A stretch of 64,000 nucleotides of DNA from positions 2,855,453 through 2,919,452 of the forward strand of contig OZ022586.1 of assembly GCA_963669155.1 (NCBI GenBank). Reading direction: 5' to 3'. The translations under genes were made by a program, and so were the position numbers. Below are positions 24,924 through 58,710 of this stretch, piece after piece. Position 1 is the first letter of the stretch; each line of letters opens with the position of its first letter. The notes below the pieces were generated by a model. The model was not told the DNA's origin and did no database searches. It was given only the letters and a program-made list of their open reading frames with translations. Origin of the DNA: Arbacia lixula. Taxonomy: Eukaryota; Echinodermata; Echinoidea; Arbacioida; Arbaciidae.

Positions 24924-25083
24924 CAGATATGCCAGTGCAGCATGACCATGGAGAAGTGTTTATGCTTGAAGTGCAAGGGACTGTACATTGTCTCATGCTT
25001 CTAATAGAGGCATACAAACAAAACGTCATCTCTCAGGAAGAATTAGTACAGATGTTGGTGGATGTTTTATATCAACTTTAGCT
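24924..25083 (+). CDS. Candidate exon with short ORF ending two bases before a donor
   Basis: Acceptor TTTTATGTTCAG, then an open frame DMPVQHDHGEVFMLEVQGTV and on to VDVLYQL with TAG at 25079-25081. The donor GCT|GTAAGT follows at once. It accepts a phase-1 join from 23988, giving a predicted 61-residue peptide with a helical, hydrophobic C-terminal half. It may be an upstream ORF of the SET-recombinase transcript or a separate small protein. No family recognised. Confidence 0.35.
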
Positions 25084-25318: not shown

Positions 25319-25890
25319 TTAAAGGTCCCCTGTCATCAAAATGTATAGACTTATGTTGATGCAACATAATGTGTACATAGCAAAATCACTAACTGTTCAA
25401 TATAAATATGTGTCCTATATTTTAAAATAATTTTTCGTTATTTTTTGTCTGCACTCATAAGCCCTGCCTCCAAAATATCCAACTCAAGATCCCCCCTGTG
25501 ACATCATCAAAGGTAGAAATTAGCATGATAATAAGCAGAATTTATGCACAAATTAAATACTGCAATGACTACCTCCACCTGCCCACAAGAGCATTACATG
25601 TCTTCACACAATACCATGGAACAACGTTTCATTTTGGAATAATCGTTTCAGAAATGTGCTAGCTTTGTGATTATAAGCACTTGCAGGTAGTCATTGCAAT
25701 GTTTAGTTTGTGCTTAGATTATGTCTATTATCCTGCTAATTTCTACCTTTGATGATGTCACAGGGGGGAATCTTGAGTTGGAGGATATTTGGAGGCGGGG
25801 CTTATCAGTGCTGAGAAAAAAGAATAATACACCCTCAGCAGCTACATGTACAAAAAACAGGCCACAATTTTGATCCGATCACCTGGTTTA
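25319..25890. mobile_element. Foldback (MITE-like) element just upstream of the SET exon
   Basis: Left arm phrases CATAAGCCCTGCCTCC, AACTCAAGATCCCCCCTGTG and CATCATCAAAGGTAGAAATT have reverse-complement partners on the right: GGAGGCGGGGCTTAT, CACAGGGGGGAATCTTGAGT and AATTTCTACCTTTGATGATG. Arms are about 150 bp or more, with a loop near 25600-25680. Confidence 0.7.
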
Positions 25891-25962: not shown

Positions 25963-26089
25963 TACAATACCATGAAGACAAGGACAAAGGGAAGAGGAAC
26001 AGAAGAGGAGGAGAGGCCAGCATATGAATGCTATTTAAGAGAAAAGAAGGACCCCCCTTTTTTTAGGCAGGAGCTCTTTGCAGAAAAAG
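25963..26089 (+). CDS. First coding exon: N-terminus of the SET protein
   Basis: The open frame begins at ATG 25972 (context ATACCATGA) with an in-frame TGA just upstream (25954-25956). A weak acceptor AG at 25961-25962 could start the exon. The frame is Lys/Arg/Glu-rich, then reads DPPFFRQELFAEKG across the junction (donor AAAG|GTGAGG). KEG-type residues before RGV match the entry to the KMT5A SET domain, where GKGRGVIA is typical. The exon ends in phase 1, as the next exon requires. Confidence 0.7.
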
Positions 26090-29000
26090 GTGAGGAAATA
26101 ATGAGACTTGAACTTCATGATGAGGGAGGAGTATTGGTGTGAATTTGCATGAAGGGCATTATGCATGCAGATTTTATTTTGCTTAGTACAACGTAAGTAG
26201 GAGAGGCAAAACATTTTTTTTTTAGGATCTGTGATTTCATGAAAAATGTGGGAACTGTCCTGAAATCAATAGAATTGTCAAATGTATGCTTCAGAATAGA
26301 GTGAAATTATATGATACTGGAAAGCATGCATTCTTGTTTCATTTACATTCATGACTGCCAATATATCATATGAAAGTAGTACTACTACATGTATGCGATT
26401 TTCTCTCCTTTTTAGTTGGTTTTATATTAATGTTGTTCCAACAAGTTCATGGTAAATTGTTGATGTAAATTATTTCCACAAAAGTCACCTAAATACTAGT
26501 TTCTCATGTTGGTAACATTCATGGACATGTCCCTTATCATTGGTTTTTTTTTAACATCTGTTAATTACCACAATCCTCATCTGAGAAGAAAAAATCAACA
26601 TGTGGTAAATATCTATCATGCACTATTCCTAATTCCATAGCATTGTTACCAAAATACATGTATTCTTGTCTTTCATCTTGAATAGGACGTGGTGTTGTAG
26701 CAGCCACACAATTTCATAGAGGGGAATTCCTGCTGGAATACAGAGGAAAGTTGATTAGCAAGGATGAGGCAGATGAGTTGGAAGAGCTGGTGCCGTCTTG
26801 CTTCAGGTTCTTTTTTTCATTTAAGGGAAAACGTCTTTGGTAAGTGGAATACATTAAAAGTTAACTGGCATTCCTTTGCTAATTATGTAAACTTAATGGT
26901 AGTTGATCAGTGCTCAGTGTTCGTGTCAATAACTCCAATTTCAAACTTGATAACATAGCCCCATTTCCAAAAAGATTATGTTTGGAATTATATCTTTTGC
27001 AGTTATTCAGCAGATTCATTTGTGTTGCACAGCAGCAGACGCATTTCTAGTTATTACATATGTATACATGATCAAAATAAGATGAAATTGGAAATATTAA
27101 ACCTCTTGTTTCAATTTCTTTGTGTACATGTATGTTCCCAATTAACAGTTGGGCTTTTAGATTGTCACAAATGATACGCAATGTTATATTTGGAGTAAGC
27201 GAGTCTTTGGTTTCATTCAGTGGGATTCACAAAAATCAGTGTATTTTTTTTTTAAATATCGGTACAGTTTAGGAGTGGGACAAAGAGAACGATGTATCTA
27301 TTACATCATTTAATGTTGACTTTCATGTTTGTAGTGTTGATGCAACAGATGAACCTGACACCACATGTGAAGAAGCTGTACTTGGCAGACTAGTGAACCA
27401 TGGACGTGGTCGTGGGGCCAACGCAATCATCCGTGTAGTCCCTTATGAAGAGGTGCCAAGATTGTGCATATTCGCTAAAAGAGACATTCTTATAGATGAA
27501 GAAATATTGTATGACTATGGACTATCCAAGCTGCCTTGGATTAGCAACTCAAGGGTAAGCTGAACTTCACTGTTTTTCCATGAAATAGATGTCATTTAAC
27601 CCATCAATGCCCATTCCCACATTTTTGTGGGAAAATTTTCAAATCTTTATAACTTCAGACTGACAGCTTCAAAAAAATTGCACTTGGCACCATTTATAGA
27701 CAGAGAAAAATCTGCTATTAATGGGAGTGTTAAAATAAGACTTTTATGCATTATTCATAGAGCTGTTATTATTCAAAGATATTTTGTTGCCTGAGAGCTA
27801 AATGTCATATTTTGCATGGGAAATTGGCAACTAGATGTATGAATAATTCATTGATCAGATAAGATTCCAGCAATGGGAGTCAAGAATTAGGACATCATTG
27901 CTCTCCATTTGCATATCCTGTGGGCTGACTGTAGTGCATGGCTGCAGTGAGCTGTGTGTGTGTGGAATGCACATGCAATGTGTGTGAAACTGTGCATTGA
28001 ACTGTGTAGCCTGTGTGTGGAGACATGTGTACACAGAATCAAGATGGTGAAAGTTCATTATGGAAATGTACCTATAAAGGTCTTTTTTCATGTGGCAGGT
28101 AATGTTCTGTTTGTGTAACATCACTAGTTTTTACTGGTTGACATTAATTTTACAGCACAATTACTAAAATTGTGACAGAAGTATTGATTTGATTTGATTT
28201 TGAGGATAAAGCTGATACAGAACTTTGCGTGCACTGTGGCTGAACTACAGACCAGACAGCATTCATTTTTTACGGAGTATTAACGTTAGGCATGGCAAAC
28301 AAGCATGTTGAAATCTGAATTTAGGCAAGCAAGGCCATTGGTAAATATACATGGACAAATTAATATGACTTGTGACAATTGATGCTTGTCTGAATGATTT
28401 AGTGCAGCAACTGTCTTAGCAGTAACTGGCTAGGACCCATATGGGCCATGCCTAGCCTAAAAAAGCAAGCTCACGCTAGCATCATCATTCTTCTTGACTG
28501 TTTATAAACATGAAAAGATAAAACAATTGCTTGTCGAACTGTAATAATCCTTGAATAAATATCCGTTGATACAATTTGTACTTATTTTATTTTACCCACT
28601 GGTCACCTATTATCAAACAAATAATGAAATATGACACACTACATAGTCGGTATCAGATCAGATTTGTGCCCACTGAATTACTTCACTTAAGATTAGAAAG
28701 TGAACATTTGTGTCCAAACTCGCGATAATAAGTCAATTGATCTAAATCGAACAATTACTTCTTGATTTGTCTGTCAAACCTGATACAACTGAAATACTAG
28801 TAATTTGATTGTGCATCCAAAATAATTCATGTCCATTTCTCTCACACACTCACACAGTTGCATGCAAGGGTAGTGTGATCAAACTTGTGCATATTTATAC
28901 ACAAGCGTCGGAATGATCGATTATGTGGGGACAGCTCATTCTTTCATGAATTTGAATAGCATGAGAATTTTATTTCAACAAATATGTAGACTCTCTAAAT

Positions 29001-41000: not shown

Positions 41001-44000
41001 TAAAAGTAAGACTCAAATTGTAAATATTTCAGGAAGCTCCTGGATCTCCTGGACTTGGAGATGGTGGACTGCTCTGCCCACAGGGACCTGAGGCCACTGG
41101 AGAAGCTAGAAGACAGGCGGTCACTGCTCTCAAGGAAACAGAACTTCATGGACCATCAGGAGACTTTGTAAGTGACCATTTCAGATTTCCTTTGCACTTT
41201 TGCAATTAATTAAAAGTCATTTTTTAACATTGTGGTGGATCAATTTAGAAACTTGTAGAATTGAGGTGGCTATTTGCCGGACCCATGATTATGAAAAAAA
41301 AAAAACCCATGCATTCAGGAAGTCCCGGAAGCCTGGTGTTCTGAGCTTGCTGCATAAGATATGAATGTAATGAAAACATGGCTCCAGACTCATTATAAAG
41401 GACTGGAAAGTCTGCTGCCTTGAAATTTCTGGCGTTTTCACATCCTCTATTACAGAAGAATGGCAGTAGATGTATGAAAACTTGATTTTGTAAGCCCTTG
41501 TAACTGTGTTTTAATTTGTGCTTGTCATTTCTTTTTATAGTGGGTTAATAAAGCGGACTTCTCAATTTGTATTTACAGTACCCTAACTTAAAAGGGAAGA
41601 ATATATAACTGTGTGTTCAAATTTGTCCTTGTCATTTCTTTTTATAGTGGGTTAATAAGTAGGACTCCCCAATTTGTATTTACAGTACAGTACTCTCACT
41701 TAAAAGGGAAGAATACAACTGTGTGTTTTAATTGGTTTTTGTCACTTCTTCTTATAGTGGGTTAAAAAGTAGGACTCCCCAATTTGTATTTACAGTACCC
41801 TCACTTAAAAGGGAAGAATATAACTGTGTTTTAATTTGTGCTTGTCATTTGTTTTTATAGTGGGCTAATAAAGCGGACTCCCCAATTCGTATTCACAGTA
41901 CCCTTACTTAAAAGGGAAGAATATAACTGTGTGTTTTAATTGGTTCTTGTGATTTCTTCTTGTAGTGGGTTAAAAAGTAGGACTCCCCAATTTGTATTTA
42001 CAGTACCCTCACTTGAAAGGGAAGAATATAATTGTGTTTTAATTTTTTTTCATTCCCTTTTATCGTGGGTCAATAAGTCAGACACCCCAATTTGTATTTA
42101 CGGTACCCTCACTTGAAAGGGAAGAATATAACTGTGTTTTAATTGGTTCTTGTGATTTCTTCTTGTAGTGGGTTAAAAAGTAGGACTCCCCAATTTGTAT
42201 TTACAGTACCCTCACTTGAAAGGGAAGAATATAATTGTGTTTTAATTGGTTCTTGTCATTTCTTCTTATAGTGGGTTAATAAGTAGGACTCCCCAATTTG
42301 TATTTACAGTACCATCACTTAAAAGGGGAGAATGTAACTGTGTGTTTTAATTGGTTCTTGTCATTTCTTCTGATAGTGGGTTAAAAGTAGGACTCAAATT
42401 GTAAATATTTCAGGAACCTCCTGGATCTCCTGGACTTGGAGGTGGTGGACTGCTCTGCCCACAGGGACCTGAGGCCACTGGAGAAGCTAGAAGACAGGCG
42501 GTCACTGCTCTCAAGGAAGCAGAACTTCATGGACCATCAGGAGACTTTGTAAGTGACCATTTCAGATTTTCTTTGCACTTTTGCAATTAATTAAAAGTCA
42601 TTGTTTAACATTGTGGTGGATCAATTTAGAAACTTGTAGAATTGAGGTGGCTATTTGCAGGACCCATGATTATGAAAAAAAAAACATGCATTCATGAAGT
42701 CCCGGAAGCCTGGTGTTCTGAGCTTGCTGCATAAGATATGAATGTAATGAAAACATGGCTCCAGACTCATTATAAAGGACTGAAAAGTCTGCTGCCTTGA
42801 AATTTCTGGCGTTTTCACATCCTCTATTACAGAAGAATGGCAGTAGATGTATGAAAACTTGATTTTGTAAGCCCTTGTAACTGTGTTTTAATTTGTGCTT
42901 GTCATTTCTTTTTATAGTGGGTTAATAAAGCGGACTCCCCAATTTGTATTTAGAGTAGCCTCACTTAAAAGGGATGAATATAACTGTGTGTTTTAATTGG
43001 TTTTTGTCATTTCTTTTTATAGTGGGTTGATAAGTAGGACTCCCCAATTTGTATTTACAGTACCATCACTTAAAAGGGAAGAATATAACTGTGTGTTTTA
43101 ATTTGTGCTTGTCATTTCTTTTTATAGTTGGTTAATAAGTAGGACTCCCCAATTTGTATTTATAGTACCATCACTTAAAAGGGAAGAATATAACTGTGTG
43201 TTTTAATTTGTGCTTGTCATTTCTTTTTATAGTGGGTTAATAAGTAGGACTCCCCAATTTGTATTTACAGTACCATCACTTAAAAGGGAAGAATATAAGT
43301 GTGTGTTTTAATTGGTTTTTGTCATTCCTTGTAATAGTGGGTTAATAAAGCGGACTACCCAATTTGTATTTACAGTATCCTCACTTAAAAGGGAAGAATA
43401 TAACTGTGTGTTTTAATTTGTGCTTGTCATTTCTTTTTATAGTGGGTTAATAAGTCAGACTCCCCAATTTGTTTTTACAGTACCCTCACTTGAAAGGGAA
43501 GAATATAATTGTGTTTTAATTGGTTCTTGTCATTTCTTCTGATAGTGGGTTAAAAGTAGGACTCAAATTGTAAATATTTCAGGAAGCTCCTGGATCTCCT
43601 GGACTTGGAGATGGTGGACTGCTCTGCCCACAGGGACCTGAGGCCACTGGAGATGCTAGAAGACAGGCGTTCACTGCTCTCAAGGAAACAGAACTTCATG
43701 GACCATCAGGAGACTTTGTAAGTGACCATTTTAGATTTCCTTTGTACTTTTGCAATTAATTGAAAGTCATTGTTTAACATTATGGTGGATCAATTTAGAA
43801 ACTTGTAGAATCGAGGTGGCTATTTGCCGGACCCATGATTATGAAAAAAAAACCCCATGCATTCAGGAAGTCCCGGAAGCCTGGTGTTCTGAGCTTGCTG
43901 CATAAGATATGAATGTAATGAAAACATGGCTCCAGACTCATTATAAAGGACTGGAAAGTCTGCTGCCTTGAAATTTCTGGCGTTTTCACATCCTCTATTA

Positions 44001-47000
44001 CAGAAGAATGGCAGTAGATGTATGAAAACTTGATTTTGTAAGCCCTTGTAACTGTGTTTTAATTTGTGCTTGTCATTTCTTTTTATAGTGGGTTAATAAA
44101 GCGGACTCCCCAATTTGTATTTACAGTACCTGTGTGTTCAAATTTGTCCTTGTCATTTCTTTTTATAGTGGGTTAATAAGTAGGAATCCCCAATTTGTAT
44201 TTACAGTACCCTCACTTAAAAGGGAAGAATACAACTGTGTGTTTTAATTGGTTTTTGTCATTTCTTTTTATAGTGGGTTAAAAAGTAGGACTTCCCAATT
44301 TGTATTTAGAGTAACCTTACTTAAAAGGAAAGAATATAACTGTGTGTTTTAATTGGTTTTTGTCATTTCTTTTTATAGTGGGTTAAAAAGTAGGACTTCC
44401 CAATTTGTATTTAGAGTACCCTTACTTTAAAGGGAAGAATATAACTGTGTGTTTTAATTGGTTCTTGTAATTTCTTCTTATTGTGGGTTAATAAGTAGGA
44501 CTCCCCAATTTGTATTTGCAGTACCATCACTTAAAAGGGAAGAATATAACTGTGTGTTTTAATTTGTGCAAGTAATTTCGTTTCATAGTGGGTTAATAAG
44601 TAGGACTCATCAAGTTGTATTTAAAGTAACATCACTTAAAAGGGAAGAATATTACTGTGTGTTTTAATTTGTGCTAGTCATTTCTTTTTATAGTGGGTTA
44701 ATAAGTAGGACTCCCCAATTAGAGTATTTACAGTTCTTTGGGCAATTCCATGATTTGTTACGTAACACTTTATGGTCATTTTCAATCTAAGGTTGGCTTC
44801 TACAAGAAGATGCTTTGATATTATTTTTCTATTTTTGTAGTGTGAATACCTTTAGACAAAACCTACTTCACACCATCAAATAAAATCATGAGACACATTT
44901 CAGTAAGGGATAACAAGAACTGTCATTTCGGTTAGTTACGTTACACTAAGAGGACATGAAAAAAATGATAAGATTTTGTCCCAAGAGTTTCTTCAAACTA
45001 GGTATTACTGAAACAAACTGTGACATTCGTGTTATTGCGGGTGTCTTGGCAAGTTATTTAATATGAACCATTTTAGGAATAGCTTTCAAGTTTTGTAAAG
45101 CAACAACAAAAACATGGTTAGTTATGTTACACTTTGTCCATGCATTAAAAAATTACATTTGCTCAAATTTTTCTCACACCTAGGGTGCATATGGGGCTTC
45201 ATTTATTTGAAACAGAAGTGCAGAATAGAAATACTGTTCAATTTAGCACTGAGTCTAACTATTTTCTCTTCTAAATAACATTTTATGCCTCTAAAGGACT
45301 AATTCAGCCTTTGGTTTGCAGGGTAATGTTGTCGGATAGCAAGATCTGAAAACATGCATGTAGTCCTGTATTGTGTGCAATTGATACCATGTGGTGCATC
45401 ACATTCATGCAATATGCATACGTTCAGGACATTTGATAATTTCAAAGGAACAAAAACATTTCAATTGCCATGATATTTTAATTAGATATCTTTTGATGTA
45501 GAATACCAATAATGTTGATAAAACTTGTACAATGGGTTCTGTCTGGTCAGTATAGTAGTAAAATAGTTAAGGTGACATTATACTTTTTTTATTACACAAA
45601 ATGACATAAATTGCACTGAGCAACTTCAAAAACATTGTGAATTCTTCAGTTTACATTTGAAACACATCTTGTGCTCATATTTTGATAAAAGTGTTATTAA
45701 AGTGGTGGTTAAAATGACCGTCTCTTCATTACTATGCCTAAACTCGCCACAAACATATTTGCTCATACTGCCAAAGTAAAGTACATAACAATATCAAACA
45801 GTGATGACCTACACATGTGCATCATAATACTAGATAAACATATTTAAACAAAAGGGTTAAATGAAGGTTGTCTTTCCCTTTTTGGTAATATGAATACAAA
45901 ACAAACAACAACATCTTTGCACACACTAAGTAGATGTCTTTGTGATTACAAACTAAATGAATGCCAGGTAACAGTGGTTCATTGTTCAAGCTATCTCACA
46001 GTCATTTGTTGGAGTTGTTTATGTCCGAACAGAAAATTATAAGTGTCCCCTATTGTTTGCAACCTCCAGGACACCCAGTTTGGAAATCATTTTGTCCTGC
46101 ATGTAGTAGATAACATTTTTCTGAGTGGACCATTTCCAGTATTTTCCTGCCCGCTGCATGACAGAAACCAGGAATTCCTCCCCTACCACCACAACTACTT
46201 CACCTGGAAATCTCTGTTCATCATACTTCACAATGTACCAATCTCCAATGCTAATTGACTTTTCTGATGTTATTGGGGCAGCTTGTAGATGGGAAATAAT
46301 CATTCATATCTATGACTGAGTGGCAGCTATCCTTTGACAAGATGAGTCTCCATTTTGCCATCAACTTTTATCAGAGAGTGCATCTTTGCAATGCCTAAAA
46401 TTGCCTGTTCCTGTGCAAACGTCACCTAAACTGAGAGCTCCATTCCTCTAAACAATCTGAGCTGACTTGATTTCTGTAACAACTACATTCTTCATCCCCT
46501 GAGCAGCAGCAACGAAGCTCTCTGCATCCTGCACAAGACATTGCCTTGATAGAACTTTACTCCACACATGGCGTTTTACGGAGCCCCCGATGCTGTCCAC
46601 TGGACCCTTACCATGAGAAGTACAGAAGAAATTCCAGCGGATTTGAACTTTGTGCTTCTTTTGCAGTGCTCCTATACCATACCAGCTGCCACATACCGAT
46701 TCACTGTGAAGCTGGTCCATCAGACCAAACAGACACAGATGTCGCTTTTTCTGGCAGGTCCTGAGCAAATCCAAGTACGCGAGGACTGTGTCTTAAGAGT
46801 GGGTTGTTAGATCATCTGATGCAATTACACATGAGTGTAGGGAACCAGAATGTCACAATGCTGTTGTGAAGAAACTGGCTTGTCGCTGATTCCAGTGCGC
46901 ACTCTGCACTTCGTCTTGAGATACGCACATATAATTCTCAGAAAAGTCAATCTGGATCAATGCACTCTTGTTATGTTCCGTGGCTTGAGATGCTTTCTGA

Positions 47001-50000
47001 TGCTCAGCACTGTCTTTGGATGTTGCAGAGATGCAGCGCATGTAGAGCATGCTTTCAATGGCATTATGGGTAGCCAATTGCCTTCTGCTGCCTTCTTTTG
47101 TCTATATATATATATCCTAATATGCTGCCCAATTGCCACTGCATAGTGCTAAATCAGTGGCAAAGCGGTTAGTTACGTTACATGGACGGTTAGTTATGAT
47201 ACATGGTTAGTTACATTACACATTTTGAGTGCTTCTCAATTCACTATAGCACAATGTTATTGAATTAATTGGACTGTTATGATTTGGGGACTATGCATAG
47301 GAGGAATTTTTAAAATATGAACATTCTGGGCAGTTGTTTTCTTCCCGGGAAAAACAAAGTTAATATATTTTGGTTAGTTACGTTACATTGATTCGAAGGG
47401 GCCAAGATTTCCAAAATTTTGCGTCATTAGCAATCCCAATACAAAGTTTTGATTCAGAATGCTGACAAATTGAAATTTTGTAAAGTTTTGTTCATCAACT
47501 CAATCTGAAATATCAACCATGCAAAAACATTTTTTTGAATATTGTCTTGGAAGTAAAACATCTTAGACAGTTTGCCAGTGTTCTTCAACATATTCTCTAA
47601 CTAAAAAAACAAATTCCACCTCAAAAATCAGAAGTTTAAAATTTAGGGTCATGTCCACTAATTCATGGGCCCATTTCTTTTTATAGTGGGTCAATAAAGC
47701 GGACTGCCCAATTTGTATTTACAGTACCCTCACTTAAAAGGGGAGAATATGACTGTGTGTTTTAATTGGTTTTTGTCATTTCTTTTTATAGTGGGTTAAT
47801 AAGTAGGACTCCCCAATTTGTATTTACAGTACCCTCACTTGAAAGGGAAGAATATAACTGTGTGTTTTAATTGGTTTATGTCATTTCTTTTTACTGTGGG
47901 TTAAAAAGTAGAACTCCCCAATTTGTTTTTACAGTATCATCACTTAAAAGGGAAGAATATAAGTGTGTGTTTTAATTAATTCTTGTCATTTCCTTTTATA
48001 GTGCGTTAATAAGTAGGACTCCCCAATTTGTATTTACAGTACCATCACTTAAAAGGGAAGAATATAAGTGTGTGTTTTAATTGGTTTTTGTCATTCCTTG
48101 TAATAGTGGGTTAATAAAGCGGACTACCCAATTTGTATTTACAGTATCCTCACTTAAAAGGGAAGAATATAACTGTGTGTTTTAATTTGTGCTTGTCATT
48201 TCTTTTTATAGTGGGTTAATAAGTCAGACTCCCCAATTTGTTTTTACAGTACCCTCACTTGAAAGGGAAGAATATAATTGTGTTTTAATTGGTTCTTGTC
48301 ATTTCTTCTGATAGTGGGTTAAAAGTAGGACTCAAATTGTAAATATTTCAGGAAGCTCCTGGATCTCCTGGACTTGGAGATGGTGGACTGCTCTGCCCAC
48401 AGGGACCTGAGGCCACTGGAGATGCTAGAAGACAGGCGTTCACTGCTCTCAAGGAAACAGAACTTCATGGACCATCAGGAGACTTTGTAAGTGACCATTT
48501 TAGATTTCCTTTGTACTTTTGCAATTAATTGAAAGTCATTGTTTAACATTATGGTGGATCAATTTAGAAACTTGTAGAATCGAGGTGGCTATTTGCCGGA
48601 CCCATGATTATGAAAAAAAAACCCCATGCATTCAGGAAGTCCCGGAAGCCTGGTGTTCTGAGCTTGCTGCATAAGATATGAATGTAATGAAAACATGGCT
48701 CCAGACTCATTATAAAGGACTGGAAAGTCTGCTGCCTTGAAATTTCTGGCGTTTTCACATCCTCTATTACAGAAGAATGGCAGTAGATGTATGAAAACTT
48801 GATTTTGTAAGCCCTTGTAACTGTGTTTTAATTTGTGCTTGTCATTTCTTTTTATAGTGGGTTAATAAAGCGGACTCCCCAATTTGTATTTACAGTACCT
48901 GTGTGTTCAAATTTGTCCTTGTCATTTCTTTTTATAGTGGGTTAATAAGTAGGAATCCCCAATTTGTATTTACAGTACCCTCACTTAAAAGGGAAGAATA
49001 CAACTGTGTGTTTTAATTGGTTTTTGTCATTTCTTTTTATAGTGGGTTAAAAAGTAGGACTTCCCAATTTGTATTTAGAGTAACCTTACTTAAAAGGAAA
49101 GAATATAACTGTGTGTTTTAATTGGTTTTTGTCATTTCTTTTTATAGTGGGTTAAAAAGTAGGACTTCCCAATTTGTATTTAGAGTACCCTTACTTTAAA
49201 GGGAAGAATATAACTGTGTGTTTTAATTGGTTCTTGTAATTTCTTCTTATTGTGGGTTAATAAGTAGGACTCCCCAATTTGTATTTGCAGTACCATCACT
49301 TAAAAGGGAAGAATATAACTGTGTGTTTTAATTTGTGCAAGTAATTTCGTTTCATAGTGGGTTAATAAGTAGGACTCATCAAGTTGTATTTAAAGTAACA
49401 TCACTTAAAAGGGAAGAATATTACTGTGTGTTTTAATTTGTGCTAGTCATTTCTTTTTATAGTGGGTTAATAAGTAGGACTCCCCAATTAGAGTATTTAC
49501 AGTTCTTTGGGCAATTCCATGATTTGTTACGTAACACTTTATGGTCATTTTCAATCTAAGGTTGGCTTCTACAAGAAGATGCTTTGATATTATTTTTCTA
49601 TTTTTGTAGTGTGAATACCTTTAGACAAAACCTACTTCACACCATCAAATAAAATCATGAGACACATTTCAGTAAGGGATAACAAGAACTGTCATTTCGG
49701 TTAGTTACGTTACACTAAGAGGACATGAAAAAAATGATAAGATTTTGTCCCAAGAGTTTCTTCAAACTAGGTATTACTGAAACAAACTGTGACATTCGTG
49801 TTATTGCGGGTGTCTTGGCAAGTTATTTAATATGAACCATTTTAGGAATAGCTTTCAAGTTTTGTAAAGCAACAACAAAAACATGGTTAGTTATGTTACA
49901 CTTTGTCCATGCATTAAAAAATTACATTTGCTCAAATTTTTCTCACACCTAGGGTGCATATGGGGCTTCATTTATTTGAAACAGAAGTGCAGAATAGAAA

Positions 50001-53000
50001 TACTGTTCAATTTAGCACTGAGTCTAACTATTTTCTCTTCTAAATAACATTTTATGCCTCTAAAGGACTAATTCAGCCTTTGGTTTGCAGGGTAATGTTG
50101 TCGGATAGCAAGATCTGAAAACATGCATGTAGTCCTGTATTGTGTGCAATTGATACCATGTGGTGCATCACATTCATGCAATATGCATACGTTCAGGACA
50201 TTTGATAATTTCAAAGGAACAAAAACATTTCAATTGCCATGATATTTTAATTAGATATCTTTTGATGTAGAATACCAATAATGTTGATAAAACTTGTACA
50301 ATGGGTTCTGTCTGGTCAGTATAGTAGTAAAATAGTTAAGGTGACATTATACTTTTTTTATTACACAAAATGACATAAATTGCACTGAGCAACTTCAAAA
50401 ACATTGTGAATTCTTCAGTTTACATTTGAAACACATCTTGTGCTCATATTTTGATAAAAGTGTTATTAAAGTGGTGGTTAAAATGACCGTCTCTTCATTA
50501 CTATGCCTAAACTCGCCACAAACATATTTGCTCATACTGCCAAAGTAAAGTACATAACAATATCAAACAGTGATGACCTACACATGTGCATCATAATACT
50601 AGATAAACATATTTAAACAAAAGGGTTAAATGAAGGTTGTCTTTCCCTTTTTGGTAATATGAATACAAAACAAACAACAACATCTTTGCACACACTAAGT
50701 AGATGTCTTTGTGATTACAAACTAAATGAATGCCAGGTAACAGTGGTTCATTGTTCAAGCTATCTCACAGTCATTTGTTGGAGTTGTTTATGTCCGAACA
50801 GAAAATTATAAGTGTCCCCTATTGTTTGCAACCTCCAGGACACCCAGTTTGGAAATCATTTTGTCCTGCATGTAGTAGATAACATTTTTCTGAGTGGACC
50901 ATTTCCAGTATTTTCCTGCCCGCTGCATGACAGAAACCAGGAATTCCTCCCCTACCACCACAACTACTTCACCTGGAAATCTCTGTTCATCATACTTCAC
51001 AATGTACCAATCTCCAATGCTAATTGACTTTTCTGATGTTATTGGGGCAGCTTGTAGATGGGAAATAATCATTCATATCTATGACTGAGTGGCAGCTATC
51101 CTTTGACAAGATGAGTCTCCATTTTGCCATCAACTTTTATCAGAGAGTGCATCTTTGCAATGCCTAAAATTGCCTGTTCCTGTGCAAACGTCACCTAAAC
51201 TGAGAGCTCCATTCCTCTAAACAATCTGAGCTGACTTGATTTCTGTAACAACTACATTCTTCATCCCCTGAGCAGCAGCAACGAAGCTCTCTGCATCCTG
51301 CACAAGACATTGCCTTGATAGAACTTTACTCCACACATGGCGTTTTACGGAGCCCCCGATGCTGTCCACTGGACCCTTACCATGAGAAGTACAGAAGAAA
51401 TTCCAGCGGATTTGAACTTTGTGCTTCTTTTGCAGTGCTCCTATACCATACCAGCTGCCACATACCGATTCACTGTGAAGCTGGTCCATCAGACCAAACA
51501 GACACAGATGTCGCTTTTTCTGGCAGGTCCTGAGCAAATCCAAGTACGCGAGGACTGTGTCTTAAGAGTGGGTTGTTAGATCATCTGATGCAATTACACA
51601 TGAGTGTAGGGAACCAGAATGTCACAATGCTGTTGTGAAGAAACTGGCTGATTCCAGTGCGCACTCTGCACTTCGTCTTGAGATACGCACATATAATTCT
51701 CAGAAAAGTCAATCTGGATCAATGCACTCTTGTTATGTTCCGTGGCTTGAGATGCTTTCTGATGCTCAGCACTGTCTTTGGATGTTGCAGAGATGCAGCG
51801 CATGTAGAGCATGCTTTCAATGGCATTATGGGTAGCCAATTGCCTTCTGCTGCCTTCTTTTGTCTATATATATATATCCTAATATGCTGCCCAATTGCCA
51901 CTGCATAGTGCTAAATCAGTGGCAAAGCGGTTAGTTACGTTACATGGACGGTTAGTTATGATACATGGTTAGTTACATTACACATTTTGAGTGCTTCTCA
52001 ATTCACTATAGCACAATGTTATTGAATTAATTGGACTGTTATGATTTGGGGACTATGCATAGGAGGAATTTTTAAAATATGAACATTCTGGGCAGTTGTT
52101 TTCTTCCCGGGAAAAACAAAGTTAATATATTTTGGTTAGTTACGTTACATTGATTCGAAGGGGCCAAGATTTCCAAAATTTTGCGTCATTAGCAATCCCA
52201 ATACAAAGTTTTGATTCAGAATGCTGACAAATTGAAATTTTGTAAAGTTTTGTTCATCAACTCAATCTGAAATATCAACCATGCAAAAACATTTTTTTGA
52301 ATATTGTCTTGGAAGTAAAACATCTTAGACAGTTTGCCAGTGTTCTTCAACATATTCTCTAACTAAAAAAACAAATTCCACCTCAAAAATCAGAAGTTTA
52401 AAATTTAGGGTCATGTCCACTAATTCATGGGCCCATTTCTTTTTATAGTGGGTCAATAAAGCGGACTGCCCAATTTGTATTTACAGTACCCTCACTTAAA
52501 AGGGGAGAATATGACTGTGTGTTTTAATTGGTTTTTGTCATTTCTTTTTATAGTGGGTTAATAAGTAGGACTCCCCAATTTGTATTTACAGTACCCTCAC
52601 TTGAAAGGGAAGAATATAACTGTGTGTTTTAATTGGTTTATGTCATTTCTTTTTACTGTGGGTTAAAAAGTAGAACTCCCCAATTTGTTTTTACAGTATC
52701 ATCACTTAAAAGGGAAGAATATAAGTGTGTGTTTTAATCAATTCTTGTCATTTCCTTTTATAGTGCGTTAATAAGTAGGACTCCCCAATTTGTATTTACA
52801 GTACCATCACTTAAAAGGGAAGAATATAACTGTGTGTTTTAATTGGTTTTTGTCATTTCTTTTTATAGTGGGTTTAAAAGTAGGACTCCCCAATTTGTAT
52901 TTACAGTACCATCACTTAAAAGGGAAGAATATAACTGTGTGTTTTAATTGGTTTTTGTCATTTCTTCTTATAGTGGGTTAATAAGTAGGACTCCCCAATT

Positions 53001-56000
53001 TGTATTTATAGTACCATCACTTAAAAGGGAAGAATATAACTGTGTGTTTTAATTGGTTTTTGTCATTTCTTTTTATAGTGGGTTAATAAGTAGGACTCCC
53101 CAATTTGTATTTACAGTACCCTCACTTAAAAGGGAAGAATATAACTGTGTGTTTAAATTAATTTTTGTCATTTCCTTTTATAGTGCGTTAATAAGTAGGA
53201 CTCCCCAATTTGTATTTACAGTACCATCACTTAAAAGGGAAGAATATAACTGTGTGTTTTAATTGGTTCTTGTCATTTCTTCTTATAGTGGGTTAATAAG
53301 TAGGACTCCCCAATTTGTATTTATAGTACCATCACATAAAAAGGAAGAATATAACTGTGTGTTTTAATTGGTTTTTGTCATTTCTTTTTATAGTGGGTTA
53401 ATAAGTAGGACTCCCCAATTTGTATTTACAGTACCCTCACTTAAAAGGGAAGAATGTAACTGTGTGTTTAAATTGGTTTTTGTCATTTCTTTTTAAAGTG
53501 GGTTAATAAGTAGGACTCCCCAATTTGTATTTACAGTACCCTCACTTAAAAGGGAAGAATATAACTGTGTGTTTAAATTGGTTTTTGTCATTTCTTTTTA
53601 TAGTGGGTTAATAAGTAGGACTCCCCAATTTGTATTTACAGTACCATCACTTAAAAGGGGAGAATGTAACTGTGTGTTTTAATTGGTTCTTGTCATTTCT
53701 TCTTATAGTGGGTTAAAAGTAAGACTCAAATTGTAAATATTTCAGGAACCTCCTGGATCTCCTGGACTTGGAGATGGTGGACTGCTCTGCCCACAGGGAC
53801 CTGAGGCCACTGGAGAAGCTAGAAGACAGGCGGTCACTGCTCTCAAGGAAACAGAACTTCATGGACCATCAGGAGACTTTGTAAGTGACCATTTCAGATT
53901 TCCTTTGCACTTTTGCAATTAATTGAAAGTCATTGTTTAACATTGTTGTGGATCAATTTAGAAACTTGTAGAATTGAGGTGGCTAAACTGTCTGATAATG
54001 TTACATTGAATAAATAAATACCAAAGAATTATAACCGTTTTAAAAATTATGCCCTCACTTTCAAGATTATATTGAAGAATTGTTATGAAGCAGTGCCTTA
54101 ACTGACCATAGACACCAGAAAACTCAAATTAGTGCATTATTATGTTAAAATATGGTAACTTTTAGTTCTTCCCTGGGAATAAGAGCAAAGATGGAAAACA
54201 TTGTATATGTGGTAAAATTCTCACAGAAACCTTGATTAGTTTACATGTGTTTCGAGTCAAAGGTGTGCCCTTGCTGTAATATCACGAAAATAGTATTTTT
54301 TATTGTTTTGGGTTTGTTTGCCACCCATCCCCATCCATCTGTAAACTTGTTTTATTTCCATTTTTTTCTAGAAAATGCATGATCAGAATTTAACCAAACT
54401 TGGCAGGAATCATTCTTCAGGGAAGGGAATTTAAAGTTGTTCAAATGGTACCCATGACCCCAATGGGGCCCAGTGTAAGGGCCTCCAGTAGCCAAAAAAG
54501 TATGTAAATTTCAAACATATTCTTATCCAGAGCCAGGGGACAGTCAAGTTCTGTTATGCGTATATAGATTCCTTCTTTGGTGAAGAAGAAAAGTTGTTCA
54601 TGACAGTTCCCATGGTGGCCTTAGTTGGCCCTGAGTGGGGTAACAGGTAGCGTAGGGGCTCAGTGTGAAAGTAACCATTCATATATCTTCTTTGAAATGA
54701 GTGAGCAGATTCAAACTTGGCAAGAATTATCCTAATGGGTAGGGGATTGAAGGTTGTTCCAGTAGGACTTATGGCTGTTAACTTTTAATAGCCACTGTTA
54801 AATTATATTGGAAATTAATGCTTTTTATAGAGATTGATTCAAAATTGTTACTTTACAAAACATTTCATTCAACATGTGGTAACAGTTACATTTAGTGGTT
54901 GTATTTTCCCTCAACTGTTTTTTTTTTTCATTTTAATATATTTTGTCATGTGTACCCTTTCTCAAATTTTTAATAATAATACTGTGCACTATAAAGAATT
55001 GTTATGAGAAAGGGAGATTGAAATGACTAAATTAGACTATCCACACATAACAATTTGTTGATCTCTCCTCATTAATTTGTTTCATTTCTGCATTCAGACT
55101 GTCACAAGATTCCCCCCAGCAAAATATATTGCAGAATGGCAGACACAAAGCAGAGATTCGCCAGATAGTGAACAAGACGCAGATACTGATGATTCTGGTA
55201 GTGAGTGGTCTAGAGTGAGCGAAACCCCATCTGATTATTCAGAATCAGACTGTGACAAAATACGTATGGTGAAGCGGCAGTATGTACAAAGAGAAAAAGA
55301 GTGGTCTGGAGTGTCTTCCACTGACCATTCAATTTCTGAAGTGTCTTCCACTGACCATTCAATTTCTGAAGACAGTGACACACAACCTAATGTAAGCCAT
55401 CTTCCTTCCAAGAGAAAGAGAAAGAGACTGAGCCCACAAGAGAGAAAGAGAAGAAAGAAGGATGGTATCACAAAAGGCAAACCAGAAAAAACTGTCTGGA
55501 TACTACCATCTCAAGCCAAAACAGGTGGAAAAGGTCGAATATGGGATAAAAAACACTATTGCATTTATTGCAGCAAACCATACAAAAAACTGCCTGAACA
55601 TTGGGGTGATTGTCATTCTGATGAAATAGAGGTTTGTAAAATCCTTGCTCTTGAGAAAGGTAGCAAAGAAAGACGACAAGAAATTGCCAACCTCCGTAAA
55701 ACAGGCGATTATGAGCATAATAAACTTGTCGTTGAAGGGAAGGCGAATGGTCCCCTGGTGGCATACAAACGTCCCAATTTTGGGGGGAAACAAAAACTGA
55801 AGAATTACACATTCTGCTCTGGCTGTCTGGGACTGTACAAAAAATCATGTCTGTATAGGCATGTTAAGAACTGTGTAAAAAAGAAAAAAACAGCAAGAAG
55901 GGCAAGACATCAGAAGGAAGGGGCAGCTCTAATGCCCATCTCGGGCAGGCTATCTACAAAACTGAAAGAAGTATTCTTCATTATGAAAGATGACGAATAC

Positions 56001-57725
56001 ACCATCATGGCAAAAAATGATCCTCTCATTGTGAAGCTAGGTGAACATTATCTTAATCGGGCAGGGCATAAGAACAATTTCACACACTATGTATCCCAAA
56101 AAATGAGAGAGGTTGCTAGATTGCTAGTAGTAGCCCGATCTCAAGACAGAAGAATAAGCAGTGCCAAAGATTTAATTAATCCAGAACATTTTGACTCTGT
56201 AGTCTTTTCTGCTCAAAAGGTTGCAGGTTTTGATGAAAACACAGCAGGATATGATACACCATCTCTCGTAAGGAAACTTGGACATTCACTAAATCGAATG
56301 GCTGAAATTTGTGAGGCAGAAGTGCTGAAGAGTGCAGGAACAAGTTCATGCAGTGGCCATGGAGAGAGCTTCAAAAAATTAATGGCAATAGAATGGGCAA
56401 CGAGGGTCTCTGGACATGCACTCCGCCAAGCAGCTGACAAGAGATGGCAAAATCCCAAGCAGTTACCCATATCTGAAGACATCTTGAAATTAAGCAAAAC
56501 ACTGTCAGAGGAGGAGAATGACTTAAAGGGGAGAATAAAAGACGAAGGTGTCACAGACAGCACTTTTGCTCAGCTTGCTAAAGTTACTCTTACCCAGATA
56601 ATATTATACAACAGGCGAAGACCAGGAGAGACCCAGTTCCTGAAAGTGAAAGAAGTTCAGACAAACATAAGAGCAGGGAAAGATGCGCAGAGAGAAGTGT
56701 TTAAGGACTTTTCTCTAATAGAACAAATTGCTCTTCCATCTCTCTTGTATATCAGAGGTAAAAGGGACAGAGGAGTTCCTCTGTTATTGACAGAAAGTAT
56801 GAACAAATCAATCATGGTCTTGTCAAATGATGAGGTCAGACAGCATGTTGGCATCAGTGATGAAAACCCGTATGTGTTTGCCAATGATGGCGAGGGTCCC
56901 TATAGAGGACATGATTGCATGAGAGAGTTTGCTTCCCATTGCAAGGCAGTGCATCCAGAGACTCTGAACTGTACATCCCTTAGGAAACATATAGCCACTA
57001 TGTGTCAATTGATGAACCTTAAAGAACATGAAATAGAGCAGTTAGCTGGTCATCTTGGCCATAACATTGCAGTGCATCGCCAATATTATCGCCTTCCTCA
57101 TGAGGCTGCTGTTGTTGCAAAGGTTGGAAAACTACTGAATGTGTTTGAGCAAGGAAGAATACATGAGTATAAAGACAAGTCCTTGGATGATATTGAGCTT
57201 GACATAGGCACAGGTGTGGATGAACCAATCACTTCATCAGACACTCTGCTGTCAGTTGATCAAGTAGAACACGCTGCTTCTCAAAGTGACAAAAGTGACC
57301 AGTTGGATCCACTGAACACTGCATCATCACACACTGCGCCTTCAGGTGATGAAGCAGTTGAACAATCTGTTTCTCATAGTGAGAAAAAAAAATCTCAAAA
57401 GAAAAAATCATGCCACCGTATGCATAATGTGATGGCTGATGATCACCCAGAAAACAGACGTTCAGGTATTCCAAGTAACATTCATGGGCCGAATAAGAAA
57501 AAAAATGCTCCTAAACAGAAATGGAGTCCTGAGGAATTACATACCATGATGGCACTTGATGTAGTGAAGAAATGTCTTGCCTTGGAGAAAATTCCAAGCT
57601 TCTCTGATTGTGAAAATATGAAACGAAATGCCTCCTGTTTAGCACAGAGAACACTAATACAAATCAAGTCAAAGGTTTGGACCATGATACAGAAGAAACG
57701 AAAGCAGAATGGCAGTCTAAATTGA
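25972..57725 (+). CDS. SET / 45-residue repeat / zinc finger / tyrosine-recombinase-like chimeric gene (whole gene)
   Basis: Spliced model: 25972-26089, 26686-26839, 27335-27554, thirteen 135-bp exons from 29596 to 53880, and 55098-57725; about 1,624 residues if every exon is used. The N-terminus is a KMT5A-like SET domain, a family that mono-methylates histone H4 lysine 20. The middle is 13 copies of a 45-residue Gly/Pro-rich repeat. The C-terminus has two zinc-finger-like motifs, a tyrosine-recombinase-like domain and a SANT-like tail. Every junction has a consensus donor and acceptor, and phases agree throughout. Its presence as one mRNA is inferred; alternative use of repeat exons or a SET-only isoform is possible. 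A nuclear, DNA-bound methyltransferase is the natural guess. Confidence 0.7.
26686..26839 (+). CDS. SET-domain exon 1
   Basis: Acceptor TTGAATAG, donor CTTTG|GTAAGT, 154 bp. With the preceding G it reads GRGVVAATQFHRGEFLLEYR and ends CFRFFFSFKGKRL. The GRGV start, the F-x-RG-F-x-EY strand and the aromatic CFxFFF strand are those of KMT5A-type SET domains. No stop in this frame; the other frames are shadows. Confidence 0.8.
27335..27554 (+). CDS. SET-domain exon 2 with catalytic core
   Basis: Acceptor TTTGTAG, donor AAGG|GTAAGC, 220 bp. It reads CVDATDEPDTTCEEAVLGRL, then VNHGRGRGANAIIRVV, then IFAKRDILIDEEILYDYG and LPWISNSR. CVDAT, GRLxNH and EEILYDYG are the S-adenosylmethionine- and lysine-channel motifs of KMT5A. 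The usual NHS is NHG here, a Ser to Gly change. It ends exactly in phase 0, matching the repeated exons. Confidence 0.82.
27555..29595 (+). other. Intron between SET exons and first repeat exon
   Basis: AT-rich, with no other coding exon seen apart from the candidate alternative terminal exon at 29079. No 105-bp minisatellite units are present, in contrast to every later repeat-exon intron. Confidence 0.6.
29079..29129 (+). CDS. Candidate alternative last exon giving a SET-only protein
   Basis: A strong acceptor (CTTTTCTTTCTTTCACAG) is followed in phase 0 by YLANYNSLRNIYTVPP and TAA at 29127. Joined to 27554 it would end the protein shortly after the DYG motif, as in ordinary KMT5A, at about 180 residues. 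Evidence is only the splice site and phase. Confidence 0.35.
   Translation, partial: YLANYNSLRNIYTVPP
29596..29730 (+). CDS. Repeat exon copy 1
   Basis: 135 bp between AATATTTCAG and TTT|GTAAGT, phase 0 on both sides. It encodes EAPGSPGLGDGGLLCPQGPE, then ATGEARRQAVTALKE and TELHGPSGDF. This is the reference form. No family recognised; the Gly/Pro content only loosely recalls collagen, with no Gly-x-y register. A second frame is also open through the exon. Confidence 0.7.
30874..31008 (+). CDS. Repeat exon copy 2
   Basis: Identical in protein to copy 1, with the same splice sites. Confidence 0.7.
31943..32077 (+). CDS. Repeat exon copy 3
   Basis: Relative to copy 1: Pro16 to Ser and Thr36 to Ala. 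Splice sites intact. Confidence 0.7.
33117..33251 (+). CDS. Repeat exon copy 4
   Basis: Same protein as copy 1; splice sites intact. Confidence 0.7.
34608..34742 (+). CDS. Repeat exon copy 5
   Basis: Pro16 to Ser, plus a silent change at Ser42. Splice sites intact. Confidence 0.7.
36506..36640 (+). CDS. Repeat exon copy 6
   Basis: Same protein as copy 1. First exon of the left 4,527-bp duplication unit; its partner is copy 9. Confidence 0.7.
37887..38021 (+). CDS. Repeat exon copy 7
   Basis: Ala2 to Pro, Asp10 to Gly, Thr36 to Ala. Its duplicate is copy 10. Confidence 0.7.
39056..39190 (+). CDS. Repeat exon copy 8
   Basis: Glu24 to Asp and Val30 to Phe, shared with copies 11 and 12. Confidence 0.7.
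41033..41167 (+). CDS. Repeat exon copy 9
   Basis: Same as copy 6, 4,527 bp downstream of it. Confidence 0.68.
42414..42548 (+). CDS. Repeat exon copy 10
   Basis: Same variants as copy 7, 4,527 bp downstream of it. Confidence 0.68.
43583..43717 (+). CDS. Repeat exon copy 11
   Basis: Same variants as copy 8, 4,527 bp downstream. Also the left partner of the 4,769-bp duplication. Confidence 0.68.
44734..47671. mobile_element. Decayed DNA transposon inserted in the minisatellite, copy 1
   Basis: About 2.9 kb of non-minisatellite sequence interrupts the array between two 105-bp units. Six near-copies of GGTTAGTTACGTTACA lie toward the two sides (44930, 45116, 47167, 47188, 47205, 47372). A broken transposase-like reading frame lies in the middle on the minus strand. 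Clear terminal inverted repeats or a target duplication were not found. Confidence 0.5.
46037..47077 (-). pseudogene. Transposase-like pseudogene, copy 1
   Basis: Three minus-strand segments in order: 47077-46853 with QIDFSENYMC and SAHWNQ; then VIASDDLTTHS, a stop, and 46774-46448 with WNFFCTSHGKGPVDSIGG; then 46303-46037 with GDWYIVKYDEQRFPGEV. The phrases DFSENY, SDDL and TSHGKGxxDxIGG recur, from my memory, in repetitive uncharacterised proteins of cnidarians, arthropods and other animals that look like DDE-type transposases. I cannot name the superfamily. Internal stops and frame changes show decay. Confidence 0.5.
48352..48486 (+). CDS. Repeat exon copy 12
   Basis: Same variants as copies 8 and 11, 4,769 bp downstream of copy 11. 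Confidence 0.68.
49503..52433. mobile_element. Decayed DNA transposon, copy 2 (by duplication)
   Basis: Near-identical to 44734-47671 at an offset of 4,769 bp (4,762 after the 7-bp deletion). It arose by tandem duplication of the host segment, not by a second insertion, because the flanks are duplicated too. Confidence 0.55.
50806..51839 (-). pseudogene. Transposase-like pseudogene, copy 2
   Basis: Same three segments as copy 1. The 7-bp deletion changes the frame after SAHWNQ, so the first segment now runs on to CDILVPYTHV before a stop. Confidence 0.5.
53746..53880 (+). CDS. Repeat exon copy 13 (last)
   Basis: Ala2 to Pro only. The intron after it matches the repeat-unit intron for about 105 bp (to about 53986) and then becomes unique, so this is the array's right border. 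Confidence 0.7.
53881..55097 (+). other. Last intron of the chimeric gene
   Basis: Starts GTAAGTGACC and ends with acceptor TTTCATTTCTGCATTCAG. It contains a dispersed repeat at about 54395-54790; otherwise AT-rich with no coding signal. Confidence 0.6.
54395..54790. repeat. Dispersed repeat with two related halves
   Basis: CAAACTTGGCAGGAATCATT followed by GGGAATTTAAAGTTGTTC recurs as CAAACTTGGCAAGAATTATC followed by GGGGATTGAAGGTTGTTC about 320 bp later, so the element is internally repetitive. Confidence 0.5.
55098..57725 (+). CDS. Terminal exon: zinc fingers, tyrosine-recombinase-like domain, SANT-like tail
   Basis: 875 open codons from the acceptor at 55097 to TGA at 57723. The first in-frame ATG is not until 55266, with 56 open codons before it, so the exon is entered by splicing in phase 0. 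In order: a Ser/Asp-rich linker with a duplicated VSSTDHSISE; a basic cluster KRKRKRLSPQERKRRKK (likely nuclear signal); a zinc-finger-like CxxC...HxxxCH motif (55560-55616); a second CxxC...H...C motif (55815-55874); and a recombinase-like domain with RRPGE (Arg at 56619), TSLRKHIAT (56973-56999) and HLGHNIAVHRQYY (57051-57089). The end has a KWSPEE...W SANT-like segment (57520-57700). Arg, Arg, His and Tyr of the tyrosine-recombinase tetrad are present; the His of the HxxR motif is Thr. Very similar repetitive proteins occur in fish and corals, from memory. Crypton or another YR transposon is the likely source. Confidence 0.85.
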   Translation, partial: TVTRFPPAKYIAEWQTQSRDSPDSEQDADTDDSGSEWSRVSETPSDYSESDCDKIRMVKRQYVQREKEWSGVSSTDHSISEVSSTDHSISEDSDTQPNVSHLPSKRKRKRLSPQERKRRKKDGITKGKPEKTVWILPSQAKTGGKGRIWDKKHYCIYCSKPYKKLPEHWGDCHSDEIEVCKILALEKGSKERRQEIANLRKTGDYEHNKLVVEGKANGPLVAYKRPNFGGKQKLKNYTFCSGCLGLYKKSCLYRHVKNCVKKKKTARRARHQKEGAALMPISGRLSTKLKEVFFIMKDDEYTIMAKNDPLIVKLGEHYLNRAGHKNNFTHYVSQKMREVARLLVVARSQDRRISSAKDLINPEHFDSVVFSAQKVAGFDENTAGYDTPSLVRKLGHSLNRMAEICEAEVLKSAGTSSCSGHGESFKKLMAIEWATRVSGHALRQAADKRWQNPKQLPISEDILKLSKTLSEEENDLKGRIKDEGVTDSTFAQLAKVTLTQIILYNRRRPGETQFLKVKEVQTNIRAGKDAQREVFKDFSLIEQIALPSLLYIRGKRDRGVPLLLTESMNKSIMVLSNDEVRQHVGISDENPYVFANDGEGPYRGHDCMREFASHCKAVHPETLNCTSLRKHIATMCQLMNLKEHEIEQLAGHLGHNIAVHRQYYRLPHEAAVVAKVGKLLNVFEQGRIHEYKDKSLDDIELDIGTGVDEPITSSDTLLSVDQVEHAASQSDKSDQLDPLNTASSHTAPSGDEAVEQSVSHSEKKKSQKKKSCHRMHNVMADDHPENRRSGIPSNIHGPNKKKNAPKQKWSPEELHTMMALDVVKKCLALEKIPSFSDCENMKRNASCLAQRTLIQIKSKVWTMIQKKRKQNGSLN

Positions 57726-57732
57726 ATTCACC

Positions 57733-58710
57733 CCAAATCAACCAATTTTCAGACAATTTGTAACCCGACCCCCTTCAATTTTCTTTAACCTTGCACCAAA
57801 TGTTCCCCCAAGTGTCTGACGGAAGATTCTGATATACAACTGAGTTTAAATAAAATTTGCTACTTTAATTGTCCGCTGCAGCCAAGTTAGATGAGTTACA
57901 TTGCTCATTTCCTGTAAATTGAAAGAACTTTATAGTCTTAACATGCACAAAGTTTTGTGGTGCCGATCTGACTATCTGTTATTAAGCATGACGTCAGCGA
58001 AAATGGTGTTAAGCATCAATGGCAATGTGTTTGGGTGCATGTTTGGAAGCTGATAACTTTAAAACTCAATTAATTTAGAACCCAATATTATGCAGATATA
58101 TAGTCTACTTGTTCTACCCACCTACCAAAAAATCGGTCAAAAAACATGCATCATTTTCTCGTAGAGCACCCTCAAATTTTGATTTTTTTAAAAAGTTGCC
58201 AAGTTCAAGGTCTCAAATCACCACTCGTCCCATCGAGAATCGACACCAATTTCAGTGTGTTGATAAACTTTTACCTATATTTTTATAGGGTACCTAAAAA
58301 CTTTTGTGACCGAAATGTTTAATAGCTTCCAAACATGCACCCAAACACATTGCCATTGACGCTTAACACCATTTTCGCTGACGTCTTGCATAATAACAGG
58401 TAGTCAGATTGGCACCACAATACATTGTGCATGTTAAGATTATAAAGTTCTTTCAGTTTACAGGAAATGAGCAATGTAACTCATCTAACTTGGCTGCAGC
58501 GGTCAATCAAAAATAGCAAATTTTATTTAAACTCAGTTGTTCGACCACACATTGGTTGCTAAGGGAGGCCGTATCTTAGCAACCATTTGACCATGGGGCA
58601 AAATATTTCAGAATCTTCCGTCAGACACTTGGGGGAACATTTGGTGCGAGTTTGAAGAAAATTGAAGGGGGTCGGGTTAACACCGTTGGTTGATTTGACG
58701 TGGATTGACC
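57733..58710. mobile_element. Large foldback element directly after the stop codon
   Basis: Left arm 57733-58051, right arm 58324-58710. Mirrored phrases include AACCCGACCCCCTTCAATTT, AAGTGTCTGACGGAAGATTC, CATTGCTCATTTCCTGTAAA and TGTGTTTGGGTGCATGTTTG. The right arm carries about 60 extra bases near 58543-58605. No coding frame. Confidence 0.8.
57849..57854 (+). terminator. First poly(A) signal downstream of the gene, inside the foldback element
   Basis: AATAAA about 125 bp after the stop codon, within the left arm. Other AATAAA sites lie at about 58755 and 58828, beyond the element. Confidence 0.4.

Follow-up and report, generated by a model that had tools for sequence, protein, structure and literature searches.

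The window, a 64,000-nucleotide stretch of the Arbacia lixula genome (C11:2855453-2919452 of a searched assembly of 607 Mb in 590 contigs), carries on its forward strand three exons for a SET domain, an array of short near-identical exons and one long terminal exon containing two zinc fingers and a recombinase-like domain. SET exon 1 (25972-26089) opens with an ATG at 25972, ends in phase 1 and finds matches in other copies of the unit described below. Exon 2 (26686-26839), which carries GRGV, is entered in phase 1 and left in phase 2, as in families B and C, and exon 3 (27335-27554), with the motifs C|VDAT, GRLVNHG and EEILYDYG, is entered in phase 2 and left in phase 0. The three phase-compatible SET exons proposed in the initial annotation are thus present, with GT/AG boundaries and phases that run 1, 2 and then 0 at the end, and their splicing yields 164 amino acids that match Pfam SET at E 1.9e-17.

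This SET domain is closest to KMT5A. Its best match among PDB sequences is SETD8/KMT5A (4ij8, E 5e-22), 14 of the best 15 matches are KMT5A/SETD8 and one is another SET protein (4ldg), and the next family begins only at E 5e-6. The phase-2 intron at C|VDAT, between exons 2 and 3, is common to the window, families B and C and the host KMT5A gene (L007 on contig C8, recognised by eye from its translation). The upstream SET boundary differs from that of the host gene, leaving one shared intron. Because this intron is shared, genomic KMT5A DNA, not a reverse-transcribed copy, is the probable source of the domain. The element reads NHG where KMT5A reads NHS, a replacement that makes the predicted H4K20 methyltransferase activity uncertain.

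Two further features lie between the 5' end of the element and the SET exons. An exon-like open reading frame occupies 24863-25081; its last 50 residues are identical in the C3 and C197 copies, while the other fetched loci give no good match and Pfam gives none, and it is possibly a small gene or an upstream exon. Just upstream of SET exon 1, a palindromic MITE-like unit spans 25490-25769, with 93-nt arms that are 87% identical. The eight window reading frames tested apart from SET and recombinase have no Pfam match, to a reverse transcriptase as in DIRS/Ngaro YR retrotransposons or to anything else.

The repeat array and the terminal exon

Between the SET and terminal exons, positions 29596 to 53880 hold thirteen forward-strand copies of a 135-bp, 45-codon exon separated by blocks of a 105-bp satellite. 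The exons start at 29596, 30874, 31943, 33117, 34608, 36506, 37887, 39056, 41033, 42414, 43583, 48352 and 53746; the first ends at 29730, and all are 97.8-100% identical to it. As first described, all thirteen are bounded by AG/GT and stay open in phase 0. Selection gives no sign of a coding role for them in this family, since the exons are as alike as the introns: pairwise identity is 98.05% and 98.03%, respectively, over 22 of 24 units, the two last-in-array units being dropped because their 3' intron differs. An earlier indication of selection (98.1% in exons against 91.8% in introns) was due to these two array-end units and was rejected, the two values being equal once they are removed. 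Frame-0 changes over 24 copies comprise 11 that are nonsynonymous and 3 that are synonymous. The repeat can be read in frame 1 (KLLDLL...) as well without a stop in the 24 copies, and that frame has a protein-like look; it needs phase-2 introns, which neither SET exon 3 nor the terminal exon matches. Recent amplification accounts for the array, and use of all thirteen exons is unsupported. Two units within 43583-53880 are enlarged, with steps of 4769 and 5394 bp, by a shared insert that contains a minus-strand reading frame (46448-46792 and 51217-51561) and is perhaps a nested transposon remnant amplified together with its array unit.

The terminal exon (55098-57725, forward strand) is an 875-codon, phase-0 exon comprising two zinc fingers, a tyrosine recombinase (YR) domain and a basic C-terminal part. 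Zinc finger 1 (55560-55616) has its ligand codons at C55560, C55569, H55599 and H55614, in the pattern C-x2-C..H..H, and zinc finger 2 (55815-55874) has them at C55815, C55824, H55860 and C55872, in the pattern C-x2-C..H..C. In the catalytic domain (56619-57089), the residues R (56619), K (56760), R (56982, preceded by T at 56973), H (57060) and Y (57087) follow in the order R-K-R-H-Y. All eight zinc ligands and all of these catalytic residues are the same in each of the 11 aligned members, whose invariant columns, in the numbering of the window row, include R369, G371, K416, T487, R490, G515, H516 and Y525 along with the zinc ligands. The box II sequence HxxR reads TxxR. The two zinc-finger-like motifs and recombinase boxes that the initial annotation placed in a phase-0 terminal exon are therefore there. 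Its statement that this exon has no usable early start codon is too strong: the first in-frame ATG stands at residue 57 (55266), ahead of both the zinc fingers and the YR domain, which leaves room for a separate start of the terminal exon in this copy.

The assignment to the tyrosine recombinases is supported by profile comparison. Aligned by hhalign with a profile of six E. coli enzymes (XerC, XerD, FimB, IntS, IntF and IntD), the 11-member alignment scores 40.9 (E 3.4e-4, probability 37.8%), whereas 200 column shuffles score no higher than 24.9 and the alignment reversed scores 15.7; with 10 members the score is 38.3, against a maximum of 27.4 in 100 shuffles. The same comparison places the invariant residues in register with the E. 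coli catalytic residues. Searches with the window exon itself against Pfam, PHROGs, NCBIfam and PDB sequences return no recombinase. The Pfam comparison proposed at the outset thus confirms SET and leaves the terminal exon without a recombinase match. None of 10 members matches Phage_integrase or DUF3504 at E up to 1, and the suggested Crypton-type affiliation has no support from these models. In PHROGs, one of 10 relatives matches integrase at E 0.11, and a profile of the 10 members finds zinc fingers alone, weakly, in PDB. Identification of the domain as a tyrosine recombinase is well supported by its conserved residues and profile scores, short of proof.

Elsewhere in the genome there are 91 matches to Phage_integrase (PF00589), many with frames of 330-349 codons and equal scores. 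By eye, none overlaps the YR places found in the terminal-exon search; they are a second, large YR population, which the SET-YR family does not match. The basic C-terminal segment (KWSPEE... / KWSEREK..., window 57500-57720) is similar in loci L030, L039 and L045 and, by eye, resembles a Myb/SANT-like domain. Beginning at the stop codon of the terminal exon, an imperfect palindrome of about 980 bp (57725-58706) carries AATAAA at 57849. It is present and collinear in the other six copies, and may represent a structure of the 3' end or a palindromic element inserted long ago.

A dispersed element with fixed ends

A search of the genome with the terminal exon yields at least 54 matches. At least seven are full YR exons with an unbroken frame of 887 codons, each on a different contig (C11, which is the window, C14, C3, C10, C1, C19 and C197), and their proteins are 100% identical after rounding; the others are decayed or diverged, with decayed copies on C18, C186 and C9. 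The SET search finds exon 3 in the same seven copies and on C18, while C9 and C186 give partial matches. Six copies share 99.70-99.86% DNA identity with the window across 5,625 bp that take in the YR exon and its flanks (5,125 bp for the C1 copy, whose first 500 bp have no match), and three other copies follow it at 98.6-99.0% up to position 61300. Among the seven copies, 10 of 2625 sites vary in the YR exon, 7 of the 10 changing a residue; 6 of 1504 sites vary downstream of it and 15 of 1101 upstream (six copies). With so few variable sites the seven copies are young, the counts show selection neither way, and constraint on their YR exon is not visible.

The ends of these copies are exact. 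All seven part at one and the same base, window position 23388, with CTCTTGTATGCCAACACG there and CTCTTGTATGCC as the 5' end; beyond it the flanks are unrelated. In six of the seven, (TG)n stands directly before the element, the C14 copy being preceded by non-TG sequence that ends in ATG. In the window this 5' target flank is the (TG)n microsatellite at 23356-23387, and the sequence before the tract is not common to the other six copies. At the other end, the element closes with TTGCACGTTGTACGAG, and TATG(TG)n comes next in all six copies examined (C1, C3, C19, C120, C10 and C14); the terminal 16-mer occurs six times in the genome, and its reversed control does not occur. The five copies with both ends measure 27,974 (C1), 33,640 (C3), 35,882 (C19), 27,466 (C10) and 37,859 bp (C14). 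Since the flanks are simple TG repeats, a target duplication is unreadable. The 16-bp word ACAGTTATTTGAGGAG lies near both ends in opposite orientations, at 23462-23477 in the window and, inverted, close to the 3' end as seen in the C10 copy. This placement is as expected of recombinase binding sites, and the words are putative sites of that kind.

The window copy thus begins at 23388 and runs up to a 200-N assembly gap at 61301-61500, so the feature originally placed at 25963-57725 is real but longer, extending from 23388 into the gap. In the C10 copy, about 1 kb of additional 3' sequence lies past the position corresponding to 61301. The sequence that follows the gap matches none of the three copies compared there, which makes the 3' end and 3' flank of the window copy uncertain. 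Locus L048 (C149:12700-15200) matches the window 5' flank at 94% over 631 bp, up to the TG tract, making it a possible candidate allele lacking the element; its next 4.7 kb have no match to the sequence after the gap, and C149 was set aside as an empty site.

SET and recombinase in one predicted protein

The joining of SET to YR in the window copy is predicted from exon phases. The same joining is independent of predicted splicing in three diverged families of this genome, because there a single unbroken frame runs from the second half of SET through tandem repeats and two zinc fingers to YR. The frames comprise 1512 codons in L009 and L010 and 1347 in L011, 953 in L014 and L015, and 1331 in the fetched piece of L066; L009 and L010 may be one event or an assembly duplicate, since they are 100% identical over 9235 bp. 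L009 places 22.9 copies of a 99-bp repeat between SET and YR, and in L066 a SET part is followed by tandem repeats with units of about 50 residues, then by the two zinc fingers and YR. The proposal of a SET-repeat-YR fusion is accordingly supported, most strongly by these relatives with both domains in one frame. The aligned relatives have YR domains far from that of the window, nine of them at 31-39% identity and L066 at 21%. Further tandem repeats of unrelated sequence precede YR in L034 (192 bp x 7.8), L043 (69 bp x 6.0) and L032 (108 bp x 2.5), which indicates that repeat expansion recurs at this place; no SET match was found near L043 or L032.

Across the genome, a SET match precedes the YR by no more than 40 kb, on the same strand, at 22 of 38 places. 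Two of these (C7:3920014 and C73) are unsure, with SET 34.7-34.8 kb away, and the remaining 16 places have no match at the search sensitivity used. The 38 places represent 38 of the 54 terminal-exon matches. Of those dropped, fifteen belong to listed places as further pieces or adjoin them, and the other, C21:2944507, is a YR place of its own with no SET match. On the SET side the count draws on 32 of 56 matches, other exons of the same copies being omitted. In a tree of 11 YRs, most of whose deep forks are open, rows with and without SET are unseparated (4 changes, against a shuffled mean of 4.0), and for this reason one capture followed by losses and repeated captures are indistinguishable.

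Taken together, the base-exact ends, the dispersal, the TG-microsatellite flanks, the architecture shared by diverged families, the invariant catalytic residues and the intron in common with host KMT5A make it highly probable, at the level of sequence, that window 23388-61300 represents a single copy of a large mobile DNA element of the YR type. Its sole recognisable gene would encode one protein in which a tandem-repeat linker connects a KMT5A-derived SET domain to two zinc fingers and a tyrosine recombinase.

Other accounts of the locus fare less well. The initial annotation envisaged that a KMT5A-like gene took a YR transposon as its last exon. On this account a KMT5A paralogue of the host would have undergone a domestication of the SETMAR kind, and the present copies would be later products of segmental duplication. 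The KMT5A-like SET domain, its N-terminal position in the protein and the intron it has in common with host KMT5A are all as this account would have them. Segmental duplication would have copied the flanks as well, so that unrelated flanks beyond base-exact ends on several contigs count against it, and the fusion recurs in families whose YRs are only 21-35% identical to that of the window. Capture of a transposon by a host gene is therefore very improbable: the whole unit is multi-copy with fixed ends in TG microsatellites, meaning that a mobile element carries SET and not that a host gene carries a transposon. Of the related suggestion of a domesticated mobile element with its own chromatin modifier, mobility and the modifier stand and domestication falls away.

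SET and YR might instead be separate genes of one element, not joined in the protein of the window family. The in-frame ATG (55266) ahead of the zinc fingers and YR, the lack of constraint on the repeat exons and the 27.5 kb between SET and YR in the window would all suit two genes. Against them stand the agreement of phases from SET through thirteen exons to YR and the three other families, which have neither intron nor stop between SET exon 3 and YR, and separate genes appear unlikely. There is also some resemblance to endogenous large DNA viruses, such as the endogenous nimaviruses of crustaceans, of which the locus could be a fragment or relative: passages of PMC10871703 describe nimaviruses as inserting into microsatellites or repeats of telomere type and as having YRs that bear a C2H2 zinc-binding domain. 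The nimavirus genomes given there span 265-579 kb, however, as against 27.5-37.9 kb for five copies of the element. All eight other window reading frames tested are without a Pfam match at E up to 0.1, and pattern-based scans of IMG/VR confirm no relative of the YR, by single sequence or by profile. A viral origin merits hardly any weight beside the mobile SET-YR element.

Relation to known systems and possible meaning of the fusion

SETMAR is a domesticated fusion of a mariner DDE transposase with a SET domain in primates. Like the element here, it combines SET with a transposition enzyme; here the fusion is mobile, YR-based and KMT5A-like, and its at least seven full dispersed copies with fixed ends differ from a single-copy immobile host gene of that type. 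HarbingerS and MuDR transposons use DDE transposases. Families of both in oomycetes carry SET histone methyltransferase genes, as does the element (work cited in the portion of PMC12730594 consulted). In the element, in contrast, SET is KMT5A-like and joined to YR, and the host is an animal.

Cryptons, as described in passages of PMC3212892, are likewise DNA moved by a YR with catalytic R, R, H and Y, and a circular intermediate has been proposed for them. Their YR stands alone or with another domain, e.g., a C48 peptidase, and the words 'methyltransferase' and 'microsatellite' do not occur in those passages. Compared via Pfam models, the element differs from them in matching neither DUF3504 nor Phage_integrase, and it differs also in its 27-38 kb length, its introns and its SET domain. 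Endogenous nimaviruses share with the element a YR with a zinc-binding domain and insertion into microsatellites or telomere repeats, but they are large virus genomes, and the term 'SET domain' is absent from PMC10871703. SET-carrying transposons, YR transposons and YR insertion into microsatellites or telomere repeats are thus already known apart, and no description of SET and YR joined was found in the open-licence PMC literature, surveyed mostly at listing level.

The closest parallel is a set of genes read differently. According to the parts of PMC10368294 (2023) consulted, there are 65 KMT5A-like genes in Hydractinia, 24 in Hydra and 61 in Strongylocentrotus purpuratus, and a single KMT5A in Nematostella. 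The genes described there mostly have an N-terminal SET domain and encode long proteins, and both a hydrozoan and a sea urchin have dozens of copies that diverge from one another; the long genes of Hydractinia and urchin are similar at their SET and C-terminal ends (E < 3e-43), and 22 are activated early in Hydractinia. That study reads them as an expansion of host histone methyltransferases with predicted H4K20 activity, and 'recombinase' and 'integrase' do not occur in its main text. Their architecture and numbers, likened by description, fit the elements described here, in keeping with the caution in the initial annotation that the fusion might be a known multi-copy family in marine animals. 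The proposal offered here is that these hydrozoan and sea urchin genes may be SET-YR elements.

A scheme for how such an element might work can be outlined. SET would have been acquired by capture of genomic KMT5A DNA, intron included, and the whole gene would be expressed as one protein. The zinc fingers and YR would bind the subterminal repeats, the fingers guiding YR, which would excise the element as a circle and recombine the circle into TG tracts. SET would methylate H4K20 or a different lysine in the chromatin of the element or of its target, and the mark might ease expression or integration or blunt silencing. As for why a transposon carries a KMT5A-type activity, easing expression, tying integration to S phase and countering silencing are all possible. 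The linker would lengthen and shorten by tandem duplication with the reading frame kept.

A broader reading is favoured by a little over even chances. These elements would form an unrecognised superfamily of animal YR transposons, with their own KMT5A-derived SET fused through a fast-evolving repeat linker, that predates the hydrozoan/echinoderm split or has spread between the two lineages; SET would shape the chromatin of the element or of its TG target, and the embryo-active expansions of H4K20 methyltransferases would be these elements. What is described here would be a DNA transposon that unites a recombinase and a predicted chromatin writer in a single polypeptide, has ends defined to the base and clearly prefers one kind of target. 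Linker repeats of unrelated sequence have expanded repeatedly between SET and the zinc fingers, which raises the new question of why a long linker is tolerated or needed. If the genes of PMC10368294 are these elements, the class is old or crosses phyla, is transcribed and has been mislabelled. This offers a testable alternative to the published reading of a hydrozoan and sea urchin host H4K20 methyltransferase expansion used in early embryos. It also cautions annotators that marine animal genes labelled 'KMT5A-like' may be transposons, and such elements may account for the puzzling KMT5A expansions reported in some of these animals.
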